Source: Ignavibacteria bacterium RIFCSPLOWO2_12_FULL_56_21 (GTDB lineage: Bacteria > Bacteroidota > Ignavibacteria > UBA10030). Taken from it: a DNA stretch of 55,395 nt. The stretch spans positions 1 through 55,395 of the forward strand of contig MHAK01000127.1 in assembly GCA_001802945.1 (NCBI GenBank). Reading direction: 5' to 3'. Positions within the stretch are counted from its first letter, which is position 1. Every line of letters starts with the position of its first letter. The translations under genes were made by a program, and so were the position numbers. The notes beneath the pieces were generated by a model, which did no database searches, was not told where the DNA came from, and worked only from the letters and a program-made list of their open reading frames with translations. Of the stretch, positions 47,535 through 54,379 are shown in pieces.

Positions 47535-48812
47535 ATGGACTCAAAGTCGAACCTTTACAAAGTCAAAGACCTCTCCCTCGCTGCCGCCGGTAAGCTGCGC
47601 ATCGAATGGGCCGAATCGCGCATGCCCGTCATGATGGCGCTCCGGGAAAAGTACCGGAAGACGAAGCCGTTGAAGGGCTATCGAATCGCCGGCTGCCTCC
47701 ATGTGACGAAAGAAACAGCTGTCCTCGTGAAGACCTTCGTGGAGGCCGGCGCCGAGGTCTCCTGGAGCGGCTGCAATCCGCTCTCGACGCAGGATGACAT
47801 CGCCGCCGCCCTTGCAGCGCAGGGGATCTCCATCTACGCGTGGCACGGAATGAATGTCGACGAATTCTACTGGTGCATCGAGGAGTCGCTCAAGTTCAAG
47901 CCGAACCTTACGCTGGACGACGGGGCAGATCTCATCTTTACAGTTCACAACAAACACCAGGAGCTTATCCCCACTGTCATCGGCGGTACGGAAGAAACAA
48001 CGACGGGCGTTCATCGATTGCGCGCCATGGCAAAGGACGGGGCGCTGAAGTATCCCGTCATCGCCGTCAACGATGCTGAAACGAAGTGGGATTTTGACAA
48101 TGTCTATGGCACGGGACAATCGACGCTCGATGGCATTCTCCGGGCAACAAGCGTTCTGCTTGCCGGAAAGAACTTTGTAGTTGCCGGGTTTGGCCATTGC
48201 GGCAAGGGCGTGGCGATTCGCGCAAAGGGCCTTGGGGCGAACGTGATCGTCACGGAGGTCAAGCCAACGGCCGCGCTGAAGGCGACGCTCGAGGGATTCC
48301 GCGTCATGACCATGGACGAGGCGGCAAAGGTGGGCGACATCTTTGTAACAGCCACGGGCGTGAAAGACGTCATCGTCGACAGGCATTTCAAGGTCATGAA
48401 AGACGGCGCGATCGTCTGCAACACCGGACATTACGATTGCGAGATCAACCTCAAGCACCTCGCAAAAATGAAAAAGCGTGTCAGGACCGTCCGTTCGGAC
48501 AATGAAGAGTACCTGATGAAGGATGGGCGACGGATCTACGTCCTTGCGCAAGGACGCCTTGTAAACCTTGCGGCCGCTGAAGGACATCCTTCGGAGGTCA
48601 TGGATATGTCGTTCGCGAACCAGTTTCTCTCTCAGCTCCGACTTGCGGAATTCCATCACAAAGGACAGAAACTGGAAAACAAAGTGTACGACATCTCCAC
48701 CCAGCAAGACCAGGAAATCGCAGGCATCAAACTTGCGACGATGGGATACAAGATCGACAGGCTGACGATGGAACAGGTGAGATATCAATCGGATTATTCT
48801 GCAGGCACATAA
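47535..48812 (+). CDS. ahcY: Adenosylhomocysteinase
   Basis: AhcY (425 residues) hydrolyses S-adenosylhomocysteine to adenosine and homocysteine, keeping methylation going. Signatures are GCLHVTKETAVL, WSGCNPLSTQDD, DDGADL, GGTEETTTGVHRL, GYGHCGKG-type FGHCGKGVAIRAKG for NAD+ and VDRHFKVMKDGAIVCNTGHYDCEIN. The chain ends EQVRYQSDYSAGT rather than in the DHYRY of longer bacterial and eukaryotic enzymes, as in short archaeal/Thermotoga-type enzymes. No Shine-Dalgarno motif precedes the ATG, since the heptamer array occupies the leader. The adenosine product could be used by the adenosine deaminase encoded upstream. Confidence 0.96.
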   Translation: MDSKSNLYKVKDLSLAAAGKLRIEWAESRMPVMMALREKYRKTKPLKGYRIAGCLHVTKETAVLVKTFVEAGAEVSWSGCNPLSTQDDIAAALAAQGISIYAWHGMNVDEFYWCIEESLKFKPNLTLDDGADLIFTVHNKHQELIPTVIGGTEETTTGVHRLRAMAKDGALKYPVIAVNDAETKWDFDNVYGTGQSTLDGILRATSVLLAGKNFVVAGFGHCGKGVAIRAKGLGANVIVTEVKPTAALKATLEGFRVMTMDEAAKVGDIFVTATGVKDVIVDRHFKVMKDGAIVCNTGHYDCEINLKHLAKMKKRVRTVRSDNEEYLMKDGRRIYVLAQGRLVNLAAAEGHPSEVMDMSFANQFLSQLRLAEFHHKGQKLENKVYDISTQQDQEIAGIKLATMGYKIDRLTMEQVRYQSDYSAGT

Positions 48813-48827
48813 GCAGGCAGTATCTTG

Positions 48828-48878
48828 CCCCGAGCGACCGAAGGGAGTCACCCCGAGCGAGCGCAGCGAGCCGAGGGG
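48828..48878. repeat. CCCCGAGCGA-type intergenic repeat element
   Basis: CCCCGAGCGA occurs at 48828-48837 and 48851-48860. The second copy continues as GCGCAGCGAGCCGAGGGG, then GTCGAGGGG. Related GC-rich palindromic elements are common between genes in many genomes of this and other phyla (recalled, not searched). It separates the two copies of the ahcY 3' end. Confidence 0.65.
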
Positions 48879-48886
48879 TCGAGGGG

Positions 48887-48913
48887 CAGTCGGATTATTC
48901 GGCTGGGACCTGA
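48887..48913 (+). pseudogene. Second, synonymously diverged copy of the last nine codons of ahcY
   Basis: These 27 bases read Gln-Ser-Asp-Tyr-Ser-Ala-Gly-Thr-stop, the exact C-terminus of AhcY, 101 bases downstream of the real end (48786-48812). They differ at six positions: five third-codon changes (CAA/CAG, TCT/TCG, GCA/GCT, GGC/GGG, ACA/ACC) and TAA against TGA. The copy is out of frame with ahcY and has no start. It looks like the remnant of a diverged ahcY allele left behind when the gene end or repeat was exchanged. Confidence 0.75.
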
Positions 48914-48959
48914 AGTACCAGAAGGGACTGTGCAGTATGGAGTATTGAGAAAGAAGAAG

Positions 48960-48985
48960 GCCTCTGGGAAACCGGGGGCTTTTTT
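48960..48985 (+). terminator. Rho-independent terminator after ahcY
   Basis: GCCTCTGG (48960-48967) pairs with CCGGGGGC (48972-48979) including two G-U pairs, around a GAAA tetraloop, and is followed by six T. It would end the metK-ahcY transcript. Confidence 0.75.
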
Positions 48986-49114
48986 GTTGCTGATTGGCTC
49001 TTTGTTTCACGCTTGTCCTTTGCTGGAGGACGGGTCCTCGTCGATGATTCGCAAGCATGTTGCTTCATAAACTTAGACGCTTGCAACTGACATCATTGTA
49101 AGTTTTCCCTCCTA

Positions 49115-49144
49115 CCCCGGTCTCAAGCCGGGGTTTTTATTTTT
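49115..49144 (+). terminator. Second rho-independent terminator
   Basis: CCCCGG (49115-49120) and CCGGGG (49128-49133) form a stem with a 7-base loop, followed by TTTTTATTTTT. Together with the terminator at 48960 it insulates the resistance island from ahcY. Confidence 0.7.
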
Positions 49145-49257
49145 CCCGCAAACAAGAATCTCGCACACCTGATAAATGAATTCTCAATCCTAGCAATAAG
49201 ACAACCGACGTACGACAAAACCCGCTCGAATCGCACGATCATTCGATGGCACACTCT

Positions 49258-49273
49258 ATGAGTATACGCTCAT
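49258..49273. promoter_or_regulatory. Candidate ArsR operator upstream of the first arsR
   Basis: ATGAG-N6-CTCAT forms an inverted repeat ending 26 bases before the ATG at 49300, with another CTCAT at 49278-49282. ArsR-family repressors bind such short palindromes over their own promoters. The presence of the operator here argues against translation starting at the ATG at 49258. Confidence 0.4.
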
Positions 49274-49299
49274 ACACTCATGAGGATCGAACAACGACG

Positions 49300-49623
49300 A
49301 TGACCGGACAACGCTCACCTGCGGACCTCGAAGCAGAGATCCTTGCGGCACTTTCTCATCCCAATCGTATCAGGATCCTTGAATACCTGCGCAAAGATGT
49401 TAGGTGCAACTGTGAGCTCGCGCCGGCGCTCGACCTTGAGCAATCCAACCTCTCGCGGCATCTCAAGATCCTGGTTCAAGCGGGCATTCTTGTTTCGTGG
49501 AAAGAAGGCCTGCGGGTAAATTTCAGGGTCACCGACGAACGAGTATTCAAGCTCGTGGACCTGGCACTCGCTGTTGCGAAGCACGGCATCGAAGAACGGG
49601 CGGGAGTCTTGGAGCAAGCTTGA
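49300..49623 (+). CDS. ArsR/SmtB-family regulator with CxC site
   Basis: A 107-residue winged-helix repressor: AALSHPNRIRILEYLRKD, then RCNCELAPALDLEQSNLSRHLKILVQAGILVSWKEG. The Cys-Asn-Cys in the first DNA-binding helix region corresponds to the ELCVCD-type As(III)/Sb(III) site of ArsR, so a thiol-reactive metalloid is the likely inducer. ATG 49300 gives the usual family length; in-frame ATGs at 49258 and 49246 are possible. It heads a run of five genes with gaps of 28 bp or less: thioredoxin, permease, thioredoxin, exported thioredoxin and CcdA-like. Confidence 0.88.
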   Translation: MTGQRSPADLEAEILAALSHPNRIRILEYLRKDVRCNCELAPALDLEQSNLSRHLKILVQAGILVSWKEGLRVNFRVTDERVFKLVDLALAVAKHGIEERAGVLEQA

Positions 49624-49651
49624 CGAATTCTCACCAACGAAGGAAACGACG

Positions 49652-49900
49652 ATGACCATCAAGGTACTTGGTCCTGGATGCATGAACTGCAAGACGCTCG
49701 AACGCAGAACACTCGAAGCACTTGAACAACTGCACGTTGAAGCTCACGTCGAAAAGATCGTGGACCTTGACGGTATCATTTCATACGGCATCATGCGAAC
49801 TCCGGGGCTCGTGATCGACGAAACCGTGGTATGGCAAGGAGGCGTGCCGACCGTTGAGAAGATCAAAGAACTTGTCGCGGCACGCATCCAGGTGAACTGA
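49652..49900 (+). CDS. Small thioredoxin-fold protein (MTH895/TM0996 type), first copy
   Basis: An 82-residue redox protein with Cys10-Met-Asn-Cys13 in GPGCMNCKTLE, the cis-Pro loop in RTPGLVIDE, and the compact beta-alpha-beta form of the MTH895-like thioredoxins. These are typically encoded next to permeases of the ArsP/UPF0718 type. An AGGA site lies seven bases before the ATG. It is probably cytoplasmic and may supply reducing equivalents to, or bind metalloid for, the adjacent permease (inference). Confidence 0.88.
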   Translation: MTIKVLGPGCMNCKTLERRTLEALEQLHVEAHVEKIVDLDGIISYGIMRTPGLVIDETVVWQGGVPTVEKIKELVAARIQVN

Positions 49901-49901
49901 A

Positions 49902-51020
49902 ATGAAAGAATGGATGAAGTTCGCGTTGCTCGCCGTCGCGTTTGCCATTTTCTATTTCGCTCCGATCGATGCCCCCATCGTGTTGGCCTCGATTTCCGCA
50001 GGCCTGTCGCTGCTGCATGAATATGCCCGGCTTCACGTCCTCACGTGTCTGGTCCCGGCCTTCTTTATCGCCGGAACGATCGCCGTGTATGTGAAAAAAG
50101 AGGCCGTCCTGCAGCTGCTCGGTCCAACGACGAAGAAGTACATCGCCTACCCCATCGCCAGCGTCTCGGGCGGGATCCTCGCCGTCTGTTCGTGCACCAT
50201 CCTTCCCCTGTTCACGGGCATCTACAAGCGCGGCGCAGGTATCGGACCGGCCGTCGCATTCCTGTTCACCGGTCCGGCCATCAACATCACTGCGATTCTG
50301 TTGACTGGAAGTGTGTTGGGATGGGATTTCGCGATCAGCCGACTGATCGCCGCCATGGTAATCTCGGTGGTTGCAGGACTCTTCATGGCATTCCTGTTCA
50401 AAGAGCACGACCGGAACAATGCCAATGGAGCCTTTGCGACCGGATTGGGAAGTGACGTCGAATACTCAAACACGCTCATCCTCTTGTTCTTTCTCCTGCA
50501 ACTTGCGATCCTCGTGCTTTTCGGATTGTCTATCGACCCCCTGTTTAAGGCGATCCTCATCATCGCCATTATCGCAGTGCTGCTCGGTATCGTGTTTTTC
50601 AAGTTCCAGAAAGAGCACAACCTGGCGTGGCTGAACGAGACCTGGGACCTCACGAAGAAGATCCTGCCGTATCTCTTTGTGGGCGTGTTCGTCGCCGGGA
50701 TCATTGAAGTGGTGGTTCCGCAGGAGGTCGTCACCTCCCTCGTCGGCCAGAATTCCCTCCTGGCGAACGTCATCGCCTCTACATTCGGCGCCTTCATGTA
50801 CTTCGCGACACTCACCGAGGTCCCGATCATTCAGAAACTCATGGGACTGGGGATGGGCCGAGGCCCGGCCCTCACACTCTTTCTGACGGGCAACGCCCTG
50901 AGCCTGCCAAGCATGATCGTGCTCTTCAAGGTCATGGGAAAGAAGCAGGCGCCGGCGTATATCCTGACCATCATGGTGCTCTCGGTGTTCGCCGGATGGC
51001 TCTTCGGCGAAGTGATCTGA
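49902..51020 (+). CDS. ArsP/UPF0718-family permease
   Basis: A 372-residue integral membrane protein with about eight to ten helices. The family signature Cys-Ser-Cys lies in GILAVCSCTILPLFTGIYKRGAGIGPAVAFLFTGPAIN (about residues 90-127), and the second half has EVPIIQKLMGLGMGRGPALTLFLTGNALSLPS. ArsP proteins export trivalent organoarsenicals such as methylarsenite, while other members have unknown substrates. It starts one base after the first thioredoxin gene and is followed 9 bp later by a second. The Cys pair in the membrane supports a thiol-binding substrate. Confidence 0.85.
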   Translation: MKEWMKFALLAVAFAIFYFAPIDAPIVLASISAGLSLLHEYARLHVLTCLVPAFFIAGTIAVYVKKEAVLQLLGPTTKKYIAYPIASVSGGILAVCSCTILPLFTGIYKRGAGIGPAVAFLFTGPAINITAILLTGSVLGWDFAISRLIAAMVISVVAGLFMAFLFKEHDRNNANGAFATGLGSDVEYSNTLILLFFLLQLAILVLFGLSIDPLFKAILIIAIIAVLLGIVFFKFQKEHNLAWLNETWDLTKKILPYLFVGVFVAGIIEVVVPQEVVTSLVGQNSLLANVIASTFGAFMYFATLTEVPIIQKLMGLGMGRGPALTLFLTGNALSLPSMIVLFKVMGKKQAPAYILTIMVLSVFAGWLFGEVI

Positions 51021-51029
51021 GCACGCATC

Positions 51030-51266
51030 ATGAAAAATGTCGCCATCCTCGGCTCGGGCTGTTCAAAGTGCAAGGTGCTCGAACAACGATTGCAAGACCT
51101 CAAAGCGGCCCACGCCCTCGATATCAGCGTCGTCAAAGTCACCGACCTGGAGCAGATCATTTCCCACGGCGTCATGATGACTCCGGGCCTGGTCATCGAC
51201 GGCCAGTTGAAGAGCGTCGGGACGGTCCCTAAGGATTCACAACTACTGGAATGGCTCAAGGAATAG
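51030..51266 (+). CDS. Small thioredoxin-fold protein (MTH895/TM0996 type), second copy
   Basis: A 78-residue protein of the same type as the copy at 49652: Cys11-Ser-Lys-Cys14 in GSGCSKCKVLE and the cis-Pro loop in MTPGLVIDG. The two differ at most positions, so the pair is an old duplication rather than a recent one. It is sandwiched between the permease and the exported thioredoxin gene with gaps of 9 and 4 bp. Confidence 0.88.
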   Translation: MKNVAILGSGCSKCKVLEQRLQDLKAAHALDISVVKVTDLEQIISHGVMMTPGLVIDGQLKSVGTVPKDSQLLEWLKE

Positions 51267-51270
51267 GACA

Positions 51271-51693
51271 ATGAACTACCGAACACTCAACAGTCTGAGC
51301 CTCATCGCGATGTTGCTGCTCTCCGCGTCAGGGATCACCTTGGCACAATCACAGGCGGCGAAGTCCCAGCCAAAAGCTGCAGTCCCGACGGCACAGCCAG
51401 TTGTGACATTCATCGAACTTGGCTCGGTCAATTGCATTCCGTGCAAGGCCATGCAGCCGGTGATGAAAGCGATCGAAGTAAAGTACGGCGAACAGGTGAA
51501 GGTCATTTTCTACGATGTGTGGACAAAGGAACAGGCCCACTTCGCACAGCTACACAAGGTTCGCCTCATACCGACACAGGTGTTCCTCGATGCCAAGGGC
51601 GTAGAGTTCTTCCGTCACGAGGGATTCTTTCCCGAAGAGGCGATCGACGATCTCTTCCAGCGTCAAGGATTGAAGCTGCGAGTCAAGAGCTAG
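51271..51693 (+). CDS. Exported thioredoxin-like protein
   Basis: A 140-residue protein with a signal peptide (hydrophobic 9-24, cleavage after TLAQ) and a thioredoxin domain with Cys55-Ile-Pro-Cys58 in LGSVNCIPCKAMQPVM and the cis-Pro loop in RLIPTQVFLD. It should act in the periplasm or on the outer face of the membrane. The next gene, 3 bp away, encodes a CcdA-like electron carrier, which commonly keeps such thioredoxins reduced. Confidence 0.9.
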   Translation: MNYRTLNSLSLIAMLLLSASGITLAQSQAAKSQPKAAVPTAQPVVTFIELGSVNCIPCKAMQPVMKAIEVKYGEQVKVIFYDVWTKEQAHFAQLHKVRLIPTQVFLDAKGVEFFRHEGFFPEEAIDDLFQRQGLKLRVKS

Positions 51694-51696
51694 AGC

Positions 51697-52398
51697 ATGA
51701 TCGAGTCTCTTTTCACATGGCTCACGACGTCGATGAACGGACGCTTTGAGATCGCCCTCTTGGCATCCGCGGGATGGGGCGTTGCGAGCATCCTCCTCAG
51801 CCCTTGTCATCTTTCGAGCATTCCCCTCGTCATCGGCTATATCGGCAGTCAGGGACAGGCTGGAACGAGGCGGCCGTTCTCGCTCTCGCTCGTGTTTGCC
51901 CTTGGCATTCTCATCACCATCGGACTGATCGGAACGATCACCGCATCGGCGGGCCGTATGATGGGTGATGTTGGGGCATGGGGAAATATCATTGTCGCCG
52001 CCGTCTTTTTTGTCGTCGGCCTCTACTTCATGGACGTGATCACACTTTCATGGAACGGAATAGTTCCTCGATCAACTTTCGCCAAGGGATGGAAAGGGGC
52101 GCTTCTCCTGGGTCTCGTTTTCGGGATCGGACTCGGTCCATGCACGTTTGCCTACATGGCGCCGGTGCTTGGTGTTGTGTTCAGCGTGGCGACGACGAAT
52201 CCCATCCGAGCAATCTCGTTGGTCGCCGCATTCGGGGCAGGGCACTGCGCGGTGATTGCCGTCGCAGGTGGTACTGCGGGAACTGTTCAGAAGTATCTCA
52301 AGTGGACGGAACGATCAAAAGGCGCGACGTACCTAAAACGCATGGCGGGAGGACTGGTGATTCTCGCGGGCGTGTACTACATCTATACTGCGCTTTGA
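51697..52398 (+). CDS. CcdA/DsbD-like transmembrane electron carrier
   Basis: A 233-residue protein with six membrane helices. The two conserved cysteines, Cys37 in LLSPCHLSSIP and Cys149 in GIGLGPCTFAYMAPVLG, are the redox pair of the CcdA/DsbD family that carries electrons from cytoplasmic thioredoxin to periplasmic thiol proteins. The exported thioredoxin encoded just upstream is the probable acceptor, and the cytoplasmic thioredoxin-like proteins are candidate donors. It is the last gene before a new promoter and second arsR. Confidence 0.9.
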   Translation: MIESLFTWLTTSMNGRFEIALLASAGWGVASILLSPCHLSSIPLVIGYIGSQGQAGTRRPFSLSLVFALGILITIGLIGTITASAGRMMGDVGAWGNIIVAAVFFVVGLYFMDVITLSWNGIVPRSTFAKGWKGALLLGLVFGIGLGPCTFAYMAPVLGVVFSVATTNPIRAISLVAAFGAGHCAVIAVAGGTAGTVQKYLKWTERSKGATYLKRMAGGLVILAGVYYIYTAL

Positions 52399-52497: not shown

Positions 52498-52516
52498 AAT
52501 GCGAGAATATATTAGC

Positions 52517-52936
52517 ATGAAGTTGGAGAGTGACATACTCAAGACGCTGGCTGACGACAAACGACTTCGCGTCCTCAACCTGTTGCTCAAATCGAAGGAT
52601 GCGCTGTGCGTATGCGAGATCGCGGACGCACTCGGCCTGCCTCAATACACCATCTCAAAGCATTTGTCGGTGCTCAAGAATGCAGGGGTCGTGTACGTTG
52701 AGAAGAAAGGCCTCTGGGGATATTATTCTCTGAATATTCATGAATCGGAAAATCGGACGCTATTTGAATTCCTGAATAAGTTCTTGTCTCGCGGACAATT
52801 TGCCTCCGATCGACAGAGTCTCGATAAGCGATTGCGTCTTCGCGAAGAAGGAAGATGTGTTGTCGGATTTGTGACGGAGAATGCGATCGTTCGACGCATA
52901 AAGAAGAAATCTACTCTTCGATCGTATAGTAGCTGA
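52517..52936 (+). CDS. arsR: ArsR-family arsenic repressor
   Basis: A 139-residue winged-helix repressor. LKTLADDKRLRVLNLLLKS is followed by LCVCEIADALGLPQYTISKHLSVLKNAG, which contains the classical Cys-Val-Cys As(III)-binding motif in the recognition region. The C-terminal 60 residues (from FEFLNKFLSRG) are basic and longer than in most ArsR proteins. Either ATG 52517 or 52499 could be the start. A near-consensus promoter and inverted repeats precede it, and arsC follows after 73 bp. Confidence 0.92.
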   Translation: MKLESDILKTLADDKRLRVLNLLLKSKDALCVCEIADALGLPQYTISKHLSVLKNAGVVYVEKKGLWGYYSLNIHESENRTLFEFLNKFLSRGQFASDRQSLDKRLRLREEGRCVVGFVTENAIVRRIKKKSTLRSYSS

Positions 52937-53009: not shown

Positions 53010-53456
53010 ATGCCTAACGTGAGAGTCCTGTTCGTATGCGTCCACAACAGCGCCCGCAGCCAAATGGCGGAAGCGCTTTTGAATCACATTGCGGGCGACA
53101 AATTCGAAGCGGAAAGTGCCGGTCTCGAGGCCGGGACCCTCAATCCACTCGCCGTCGAGGCCATGAAAGAGATGGGAATCGATATTTCCAAGAAGCAGAC
53201 CCGGAAAGTCTTCGATATCTATCTCGGTGACAAGATCTTCTCGTATGTCATCACAGTATGCGATGAAGCATCAGCCGAACGTTGCCCAATTTTCCCCGGC
53301 ATCACCAAGCGTCTCCATTGGAGCTTTCCCGACCCGGAACAACTCGTAGGATCTCACGAGGAAAAGCTGCGAGAGACCATTGCCATTCGCAATCAAATAC
53401 AAATACGTATTGAGGCATGGATCCGAGAAACCGTCGGACCCATACATGTCAACTGA
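53010..53456 (+). CDS. arsC: Arsenate reductase (low-molecular-weight phosphatase type)
   Basis: A 148-residue ArsC of the low-molecular-weight tyrosine phosphatase family. The P-loop Cys10-x5-Arg16 is in [10 protein letters not shown], and the shuttle cysteines Cys84 (VCDEAS) and Cys92 (RCPIFPG) are present, pointing to the thioredoxin-coupled mechanism. The start at 53010 places Cys10 where the family has it; the open frame begins further upstream. It reduces As(V) to As(III) for export by the ACR3 pump encoded downstream. Confidence 0.94.
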
Positions 53457-53713: not shown

Positions 53714-54379
53714 ATGAGCTATAAAGCACTCGTCGCAGAATTTATCGGCACATTCACGCTGATCTTCGTCGGAGTCGGATCGATCGCCGCCGATTACATG
53801 ACGGGCGGCAAACTTGGGATTACGGGCATCGCGCTTGCTCATGGCCTTGCCATCGGCGTCATGGTCACGATTGCTCTCTCAATAAGCGGAGGTCAACTCA
53901 ATCCGGCAATGACGCTCGGCGCATTCGTCGGCGGAAAGATCGGCGCGAAAGACGCGGTGCAGTACGTCATCGCCCAATGTCTCGGCGCCATTGTCGGAGC
54001 CGTTCTGATCCAGCAAACCGTCCCCTCGGACGTGCTTGGCGCAGTGCAGATGGGAACGCCAATGCTCGGACGCGATAGTACGTGGATGCAGGGATTCATC
54101 GCTGAAGTCGTCCTGACCTTCTTTCTTGTCCTGACAGTCTTCGGCACGGCAATCGACCAAAAAGCTCCCCGCATGGGTGGGCTCTTCATAGGTTTTGCAG
54201 TGGTCTTCGGCGTTCTGGCGGGCGGACCCATTTCCGGGGCCGCAATGAACCCGGCCCGACATCTCGGTCCTGCATTGCTGGGCGGCTTCCTGTCGGATTC
54301 CCTTCTTTATTGGATTGGACCTCTGGTCGGCGGCGCCATCGCAGGAGTCGTTGCAAGATACCTTTTCTCCAGTAAGTGA
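53714..54379 (+). CDS. Aquaglyceroporin (MIP family), likely AqpS-like
   Basis: A 221-residue MIP channel with six helices and both pore motifs, Asn63-Pro-Ala in GGQLNPAMTLGA and Asn179-Pro-Ala-Arg in SGAAMNPARHLGPALL. Genes for aquaglyceroporins within ars operons (AqpS) encode channels that let As(III) leave down its gradient. The small selectivity residues cannot be assigned confidently. AGGAG lies six bases before the ATG, and the stop overlaps the acr3 start by one base (TGATG). Confidence 0.88.
   Translation: MSYKALVAEFIGTFTLIFVGVGSIAADYMTGGKLGITGIALAHGLAIGVMVTIALSISGGQLNPAMTLGAFVGGKIGAKDAVQYVIAQCLGAIVGAVLIQQTVPSDVLGAVQMGTPMLGRDSTWMQGFIAEVVLTFFLVLTVFGTAIDQKAPRMGGLFIGFAVVFGVLAGGPISGAAMNPARHLGPALLGGFLSDSLLYWIGPLVGGAIAGVVARYLFSSK

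Follow-up and report, generated by a model that had tools for sequence, protein, structure and literature searches.

A putative arsenical efflux module with its own thiol redox supply in an Ignavibacteria bacterium

The DNA analysed here (the window) is a stretch of 55,395 nucleotides from Ignavibacteria bacterium RIFCSPLOWO2_12_FULL_56_21, one entire contig (MHAK01000127.1) of a 3.36 Mb genome assembly (GCA_001802945.1). It carries a six-gene cluster in which a permease of family PF03773 stands between two small cytosolic thioredoxin-like proteins (Trx3A and Trx3B) and is followed by an exported thioredoxin (eTrx) and a CcdA-type membrane protein, all behind an ArsR repressor gene. The operon is probably an arsenic defence that joins an exporter with thioredoxins and a CcdA-type reductant conduit. 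With moderate confidence, we read it as an efflux module that responds to arsenicals and brings its own redox supply, an equivalent of the ArsE-ArsF-ArsG (ArsEFG) set together with its neighbouring permease. That set, the subject of work by Chen, Zhang and Rosen in 2019, reportedly detoxifies roxarsone and nitarsone. An earlier note on this DNA had proposed the same six genes, and all six open reading frames were found where it placed them, each with a family match (Table 1). Its description of gaps of 1 to 9 bp is true of the five genes after arsR (1, 9, 4 and 3 bp), the gap between arsR and Trx3A being 28 bp.

The association around the permease is not sporadic. Scanning 84,980 species genomes by sequence patterns gave 80 loci, spread over many phyla of bacteria and archaea; these are the best 80 of at least 587, they favour close permeases, and several are cut by contig ends. 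Families within the loci were assigned by profiles built from the window proteins, with curated-model checks for the ArsF, ArsG, CcdA, eTrx and permease sets only. Within 4 kb of the permease, a gene of the Thioredoxin_3 family occurs in 72 loci, ArsR in 68, a CcdA-type gene in 36 and eTrx in 21, and one locus (L021) holds a 93% match over the window permease. Because the window's own genome has a single PF03773 gene, and two of its three Thioredoxin_3 matches directly flank that permease (rough chance 7e-7), the adjacency is more than would be expected by chance.

These counts bear on an older idea, proposed by Castillo and Saier (2010), that such thioredoxins and CcdA supply electrons to ArsC. 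If this were all, the redox genes of the window would merely feed the cytosolic arsenate reductase whose gene follows them, and the Thioredoxin_3 gene with a CxNC motif that lies between arsC and acr3 in L203, L204 and L247 would find a ready explanation. However, ArsC is encoded within 4 kb and on the same strand in 7 of the 80 permease loci, as against the 72 with Thioredoxin_3, and the electron flow through a CcdA/exported thioredoxin pair leads away from a cytosolic enzyme, as Castillo and Saier also remark; supply to ArsC is accordingly an improbable function. The gene sets treated there comprise the same kinds of genes in arsenic operons as the window does. They differ in that the genes were assigned to ArsC, with neither a PF03773 link nor two types of small thioredoxin in the part of the paper available, which predates ArsEFG.

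The comparison with ArsEFG turns on what accompanies the permease. Among the 80 loci, the permease core carries eTrx with CcdA in 19 cases and ArsF with ArsG in 14, with mixed pairs in 0 of 33 (Fisher p ~1e-9); in one further locus CcdA lacks eTrx, and in another ArsF lacks ArsG. Because the core carries one pair or the other and never a mixture, the window is the counterpart of an ArsP/ArsEFG module, with eTrx/CcdA occupying the place of ArsF/ArsG. Curated models confirm ArsG in all 14 ArsF and ArsG loci and ArsF in 13 of them. ArsG exceeds its curated cut-off in 8 of 395 genomes of the window's phylum, at 264-310 bits, and has an ArsF-type gene immediately upstream in all eight loci, the curated model having been applied to three of them; on this ArsF model, NF040494 (cut-off 60), the proteins encoded next to ArsG reach 109-115. 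An ArsE-family Thioredoxin_3 gene is nearby in 8 of these 8 loci, and 6 of them have a PF03773 permease at most a few kb away, so that ArsEFG resembles the window in its permease neighbour as well as in its three parts, which by topology are a cytosolic Thioredoxin_3/ArsE-family protein, an exported CxxC protein and a DsbD_TM-type membrane protein. One locus (L109), from the same order, is the only hybrid, consisting in this order of permease, window-type eTrx, Thioredoxin_3, another gene, ArsF and ArsG.

The two cassettes nevertheless differ. The possibility that eTrx is an ArsF was ruled out by its having no match to NF040494 at E 0.01, and the possibility that the window CcdA is an ArsG by a score of 44.5 bits on NF040495 against a cut-off of 200; the curated models likewise set window-type proteins of other loci apart from ArsF and ArsG. 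The window also has an extra, permease-linked small thioredoxin. Distant homology links ArsG to window-type CcdA (hhalign 99.6%) and, more weakly, ArsF to eTrx. Both membrane proteins keep a membrane cysteine pair; the first cysteines coincide in the alignment, and the second are offset by two columns. A broader proposal, which we advance only tentatively, is that ArsG and the window CcdA are interchangeable electron conduits rather than exporters, that ArsF and eTrx are exported thiol partners, and that true arsenical export falls to the PF03773 permease. The surveys show that two alternative cassettes fill one slot, they suggest that ArsG may be a membrane electron carrier in spite of its description as an efflux protein, and they make the role of the known ArsEFG set newly testable. 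A large, poorly characterised group of permeases with relatives in many bacterial and archaeal phyla also acquires defined redox partners. No earlier report of a permease next to ArsEFG, of alternating cassettes or of two types of small thioredoxin was found in a search that left subscription journals mostly outside, and novelty is thus not proven.

Judged by phylogeny and gene context, the two small thioredoxins are different paralogues, Trx3A being linked to the permease and Trx3B to eTrx/CcdA. Both exceed the ArsE/TIGR00412 cut-off and match Thioredoxin_3 of Pfam (4e-25 and 3.5e-22), and the closest solved relative of Trx3A is MTH895 (1ilo). Within the window's phylum, the Thioredoxin_3 gene before a permease encodes CxNC in 14 of 17 cases, and all 28 of those before eTrx/CcdA whose motif could be read encode CxKC or CxRC. 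A maximum-likelihood tree, which has few columns and leaves its deeper forks unsettled, places the eTrx-linked Thioredoxin_3 proteins, Trx3B among them, in one 29-member clade (support 99/98), with Trx3A elsewhere. Redundant duplication was ruled out, since the Trx3B clade stands apart from Trx3A and the split between CxKC and CxNC tracks gene context. The clade, which also includes one ArsE, covers loci with several divergent permease types; thus the Trx3B-eTrx-CcdA half travels with different permeases. The earlier note had put two CxxC proteins into one electron chain: both are real and bear the motif, but the tree and the gene context argue against their being equivalent parts.

Downstream of Trx3B, eTrx has a hydrophobic stretch at 6-27, and its CxxC and cis-proline are present in 100% of 73 relatives. 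C37 and C149 of CcdA are kept in 75 of 75 relatives and, together with the DsbD_TM match, place it by its paired membrane cysteines in the CcdA/DsbD_TM group, whose members are electron conduits. The complete thiol chain from cytosol through membrane to periplasm, claimed previously, is supported, with its parts encoded and every expected cysteine conserved. Among the 395 genomes, 50 of the 52 loci with a window-type CcdA have eTrx as the gene directly before it, a pairing from which we infer that CcdA passes electrons to the exported thioredoxin, and ArsC or Acr3 is near CcdA in 28 of the 52. A third membrane cysteine, C184, follows the invariant H183 (GHC) in 65% of relatives of the window CcdA and lies outside the canonical CcdA pair.

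An exported thioredoxin next to a CcdA-type protein might also be a general periplasmic reductant supply, as in SoxV/SoxW or cytochrome c maturation, that merely happens to follow the gene of an arsenical permease. The CcdA orthologue SoxV, for example, reduces the periplasmic thioredoxin SoxW (Appia-Ayme and Berks 2002, cited in PMC10451225). SoxV/SoxW and the DsbD/CcdA conduits share with the window a CcdA-type protein with paired membrane cysteines and an exported thioredoxin, and differ from it in operon, regulator and presumed client. Standalone eTrx/CcdA pairs exist as well, and one pair lies amid RND (resistance-nodulation-division) efflux, OsmC, TauE/SafE and FmdE-type genes on a Sulfuricella plasmid. 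We nonetheless regard general supply as unlikely, because the pair is tightly associated with the permease core and a dedicated Trx3B clade, because eTrx/CcdA and ArsF/ArsG alternate strictly, and because only 9 bp separate the permease gene from Trx3B. The plasmid in question is pSCD of Sulfuricella denitrificans (L121), where the pair comes after the RND genes and before the others, with arsM and arsC near; together with L201, in which the pair is likewise near OsmC- or TetR-like, TauE/SafE-type and FmdE-type genes, it represents a second recurrent neighbourhood.

The Cys-Ser-Cys of the permease corresponds to C96-S97-C98. Since one pattern of the scan held this motif, cysteine counts from the 80 loci are biased; in 56 permeases gathered by protein searches and not selected by motif, many only 21-26% identical to the window permease, C96 and C98 are invariant, and C49 is invariant in 94 closer permeases. 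In the predicted structure (predicted local distance difference test, pLDDT, 90), C96-S-C98 lies at a break between two helices and T303-L-T-E306 at the corresponding break of the second half, as would be expected if the substrate site were formed by re-entrant or discontinuous helices. A search of solved structures by sequence returned nothing for the permease or CcdA. No structural relative was firmly identified by a fold search with the model: its matches, all to transporters with re-entrant helices and headed by Drosophila INDY (E 6e-3, template modelling score 0.44), are too weak for a claim.

The designation of the permease as ArsP-like holds as far as membership of PF03773 is concerned; the name ArsP itself comes from Pfam and covers a broad family that also holds Cu/Zn and SaoE exporter models. 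Methylarsenite, MAs(III), and trivalent roxarsone are exported by ArsP, whereas arsenite is not (PMC6205960). The ArsP of Campylobacter jejuni, which mediates this efflux, shares family PF03773 and an ars context with the window permease; with a plasmid-borne, ars-linked permease of this kind, identity is only 24%. From sequence and context, the substrate is likely an arsenical. The more specific suggestions of the earlier note, which is supported in part, are that organoarsenicals may be the substrate and that pentavalent forms or the permease cysteines may be reduced; these are no more than possibilities.

Export of another soft metal or metalloid (copper, zinc, cadmium, mercury, antimony or an organometal), with the arsenic neighbours incidental, would agree with the only curated PF03773 models that were matched, those of the Cu/Zn exporter SO_0444 and SaoE. 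ArsR proteins with a C-x-C motif, such as CadC, can moreover sense cadmium and lead. The best curated matches are nonetheless well under half of their cut-offs (117.6 of 325 bits for SO_0444 and 116.5 of 300 for SaoE), many relatives have the cassette within arsC/acr3 islands, and its counterpart is the arsenical-linked ArsEFG; a non-arsenical substrate is thus given a low probability.

The first ArsR has the C-x-C of an As(III) sensor (RCNCEL), placed close to the DNA-binding helix where arsenic/cadmium sensing occurs in this family, and the two columns are cysteine in 90% and 82% of 132 ArsR proteins from such loci. The open reading frame finder extends the gene to 49246, but orthologues begin at the ATG of 49300, the start chosen by the earlier reader. 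Just upstream lies a palindrome (49258-49273), with matching sites at the same place in three orthologous operons (ATGAGTGTTTACTCAT in L003, ATGAGTACATACTCAT in L004 and ATGCGTACTTGCTCAT in L005), and the pattern ATGAGTN4RCTCAT occurs once in the whole 3.36 Mb genome. It is the best candidate, and likely the operator, of the first ArsR. No site of this type was found in the region preceding arsR2, and therefore the module and the ars unit that follows are probably regulated separately. The module had been said to have its own ArsR and to be separate from the classical arsRC unit: an arsenic-type regulator and a private candidate operator were indeed found, and separateness applies to regulator and operator here, but relatives often combine the cassette with arsC and acr3 in one island.

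A mechanism can be proposed in which the first ArsR probably binds a trivalent arsenical through its C-x-C and releases the palindrome, freeing the operon. The permease would export a soft, thiol-binding trivalent metalloid through a site with C96-S-C98 and probably C49, as conservation and the model suggest, and Trx3A, on the permease side in the cytosol, would either reduce the substrate to its trivalent form or pass it on through its CxNC. The topology, the gene pairing and the invariance of the cysteines suggest that electrons flow from Trx3B through the membrane cysteines of CcdA to eTrx, which may keep periplasmic thiols, the outer face of the permease or arsenic-bound partners reduced. 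The eTrx/CcdA half would perform the job of ArsF/ArsG in other loci. If the broader proposal, with ArsG and CcdA as interchangeable conduits, is also true, arsenic efflux in many anaerobes would be coupled to outward transport of reducing equivalents, which to our knowledge is found in no described ars system.

Several observations weigh against an arsenical efflux module with a dedicated redox supply. The permease falls far under the SO_0444 and SaoE cut-offs and no curated ArsP model was matched, so that the models do not fix its substrate class. The literature presents ArsG as an efflux transporter, not an electron carrier (PMC9144182). Five eTrx/CcdA pairs from one family of the phylum (L218, L228, L229, L242 and L246) are flanked on both sides by at least ~8 kb in which no ars gene was found, and the pair is therefore not confined to arsenic. 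Finally, in 44 of the 80 permease loci, some of them cut by a contig end, no CcdA-type gene was found within 4.5 kb; thus the conduit is not obligatory.

Table 1. Features of the module and of the ars unit downstream of it, in window coordinates
Feature	Position	Strand	Evidence
Candidate ArsR operator, palindrome ATGAG-TATACG-CTCAT (ATGAGTATACGCTCAT)	49258..49273		Upstream of arsR
ArsR/SmtB repressor	49300..49623	+	HTH_5 1.5e-14; metalloregulator model NF033788 over cut-off; C-x-C (RCNCEL)
Trx3A, cytosolic thioredoxin-like, CMNC	49652..49900	+	TIGR00412 (MTH895/ArsE family) 95.4 bits, cut-off 62
PF03773 (ArsP_1) permease	49902..51020	+	Pfam 9.6e-78, 261.7 bits, gathering cut-off 32.3
Trx3B, cytosolic thioredoxin-like, CSKC	51030..51266	+	TIGR00412 85.6 bits, cut-off 62
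eTrx, exported thioredoxin, CIPC and cis-Pro	51271..51693	+	Thioredoxin_2 5.7e-11; signal-like N-terminus
CcdA/DsbD_TM-type membrane protein, C37 and C149	51697..52398	+	DsbD_TM 2.8e-10, 40.3 bits, cut-off 27.1
Second ArsR (arsR2, CVCEI), opens classical unit	52499..52936	+	Family-model matches
ArsC-like arsenate reductase, low-molecular-weight phosphatase/thioredoxin type	53010..53456	+	LMWPc 1.2e-17; TIGR02691 116.6 bits, below cut-off 174.3
MIP channel (aquaporin family)	53714..54379	+	MIP 7.6e-55
Acr3 arsenite exporter, cut by contig end	54376..55395	+	TIGR00832 362.9 bits, cut-off 282.8

Rfam and tRNA scans of the window gave no matches. An endogenous source of methylarsenite was sought, and the only strong ArsM-like gene scores 206 against a cut-off of 263 and is not a convincing ArsM, reading GVGYP where ArsM proteins typically have GCGNP. 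Close to this methyltransferase gene (L254, 1450-2247, on contig C2 of the same genome) is another whose product carries a heavy-metal-binding CPMHP motif. A small CC-motif protein (MGNCCAKPLFKIIKIGGVEVGIKGLD..., MCARCCSKPITTIIKIDGIETGIIGLD...) precedes the permease in two genomes (L109, 8349-8591; L006, 2542-2871, and L011) and is a possible member of the module. Another genus of the family (genome G012, L105 / L007) has, at the spot downstream of an S-adenosylhomocysteine hydrolase gene that corresponds to 47535-51693 of the window, arsR, a different PF03773 permease (~35% identical), Thioredoxin_3 and an eTrx that seems to be truncated, and CcdA was not found there; to judge from this arrangement, the permease has apparently been replaced in place.

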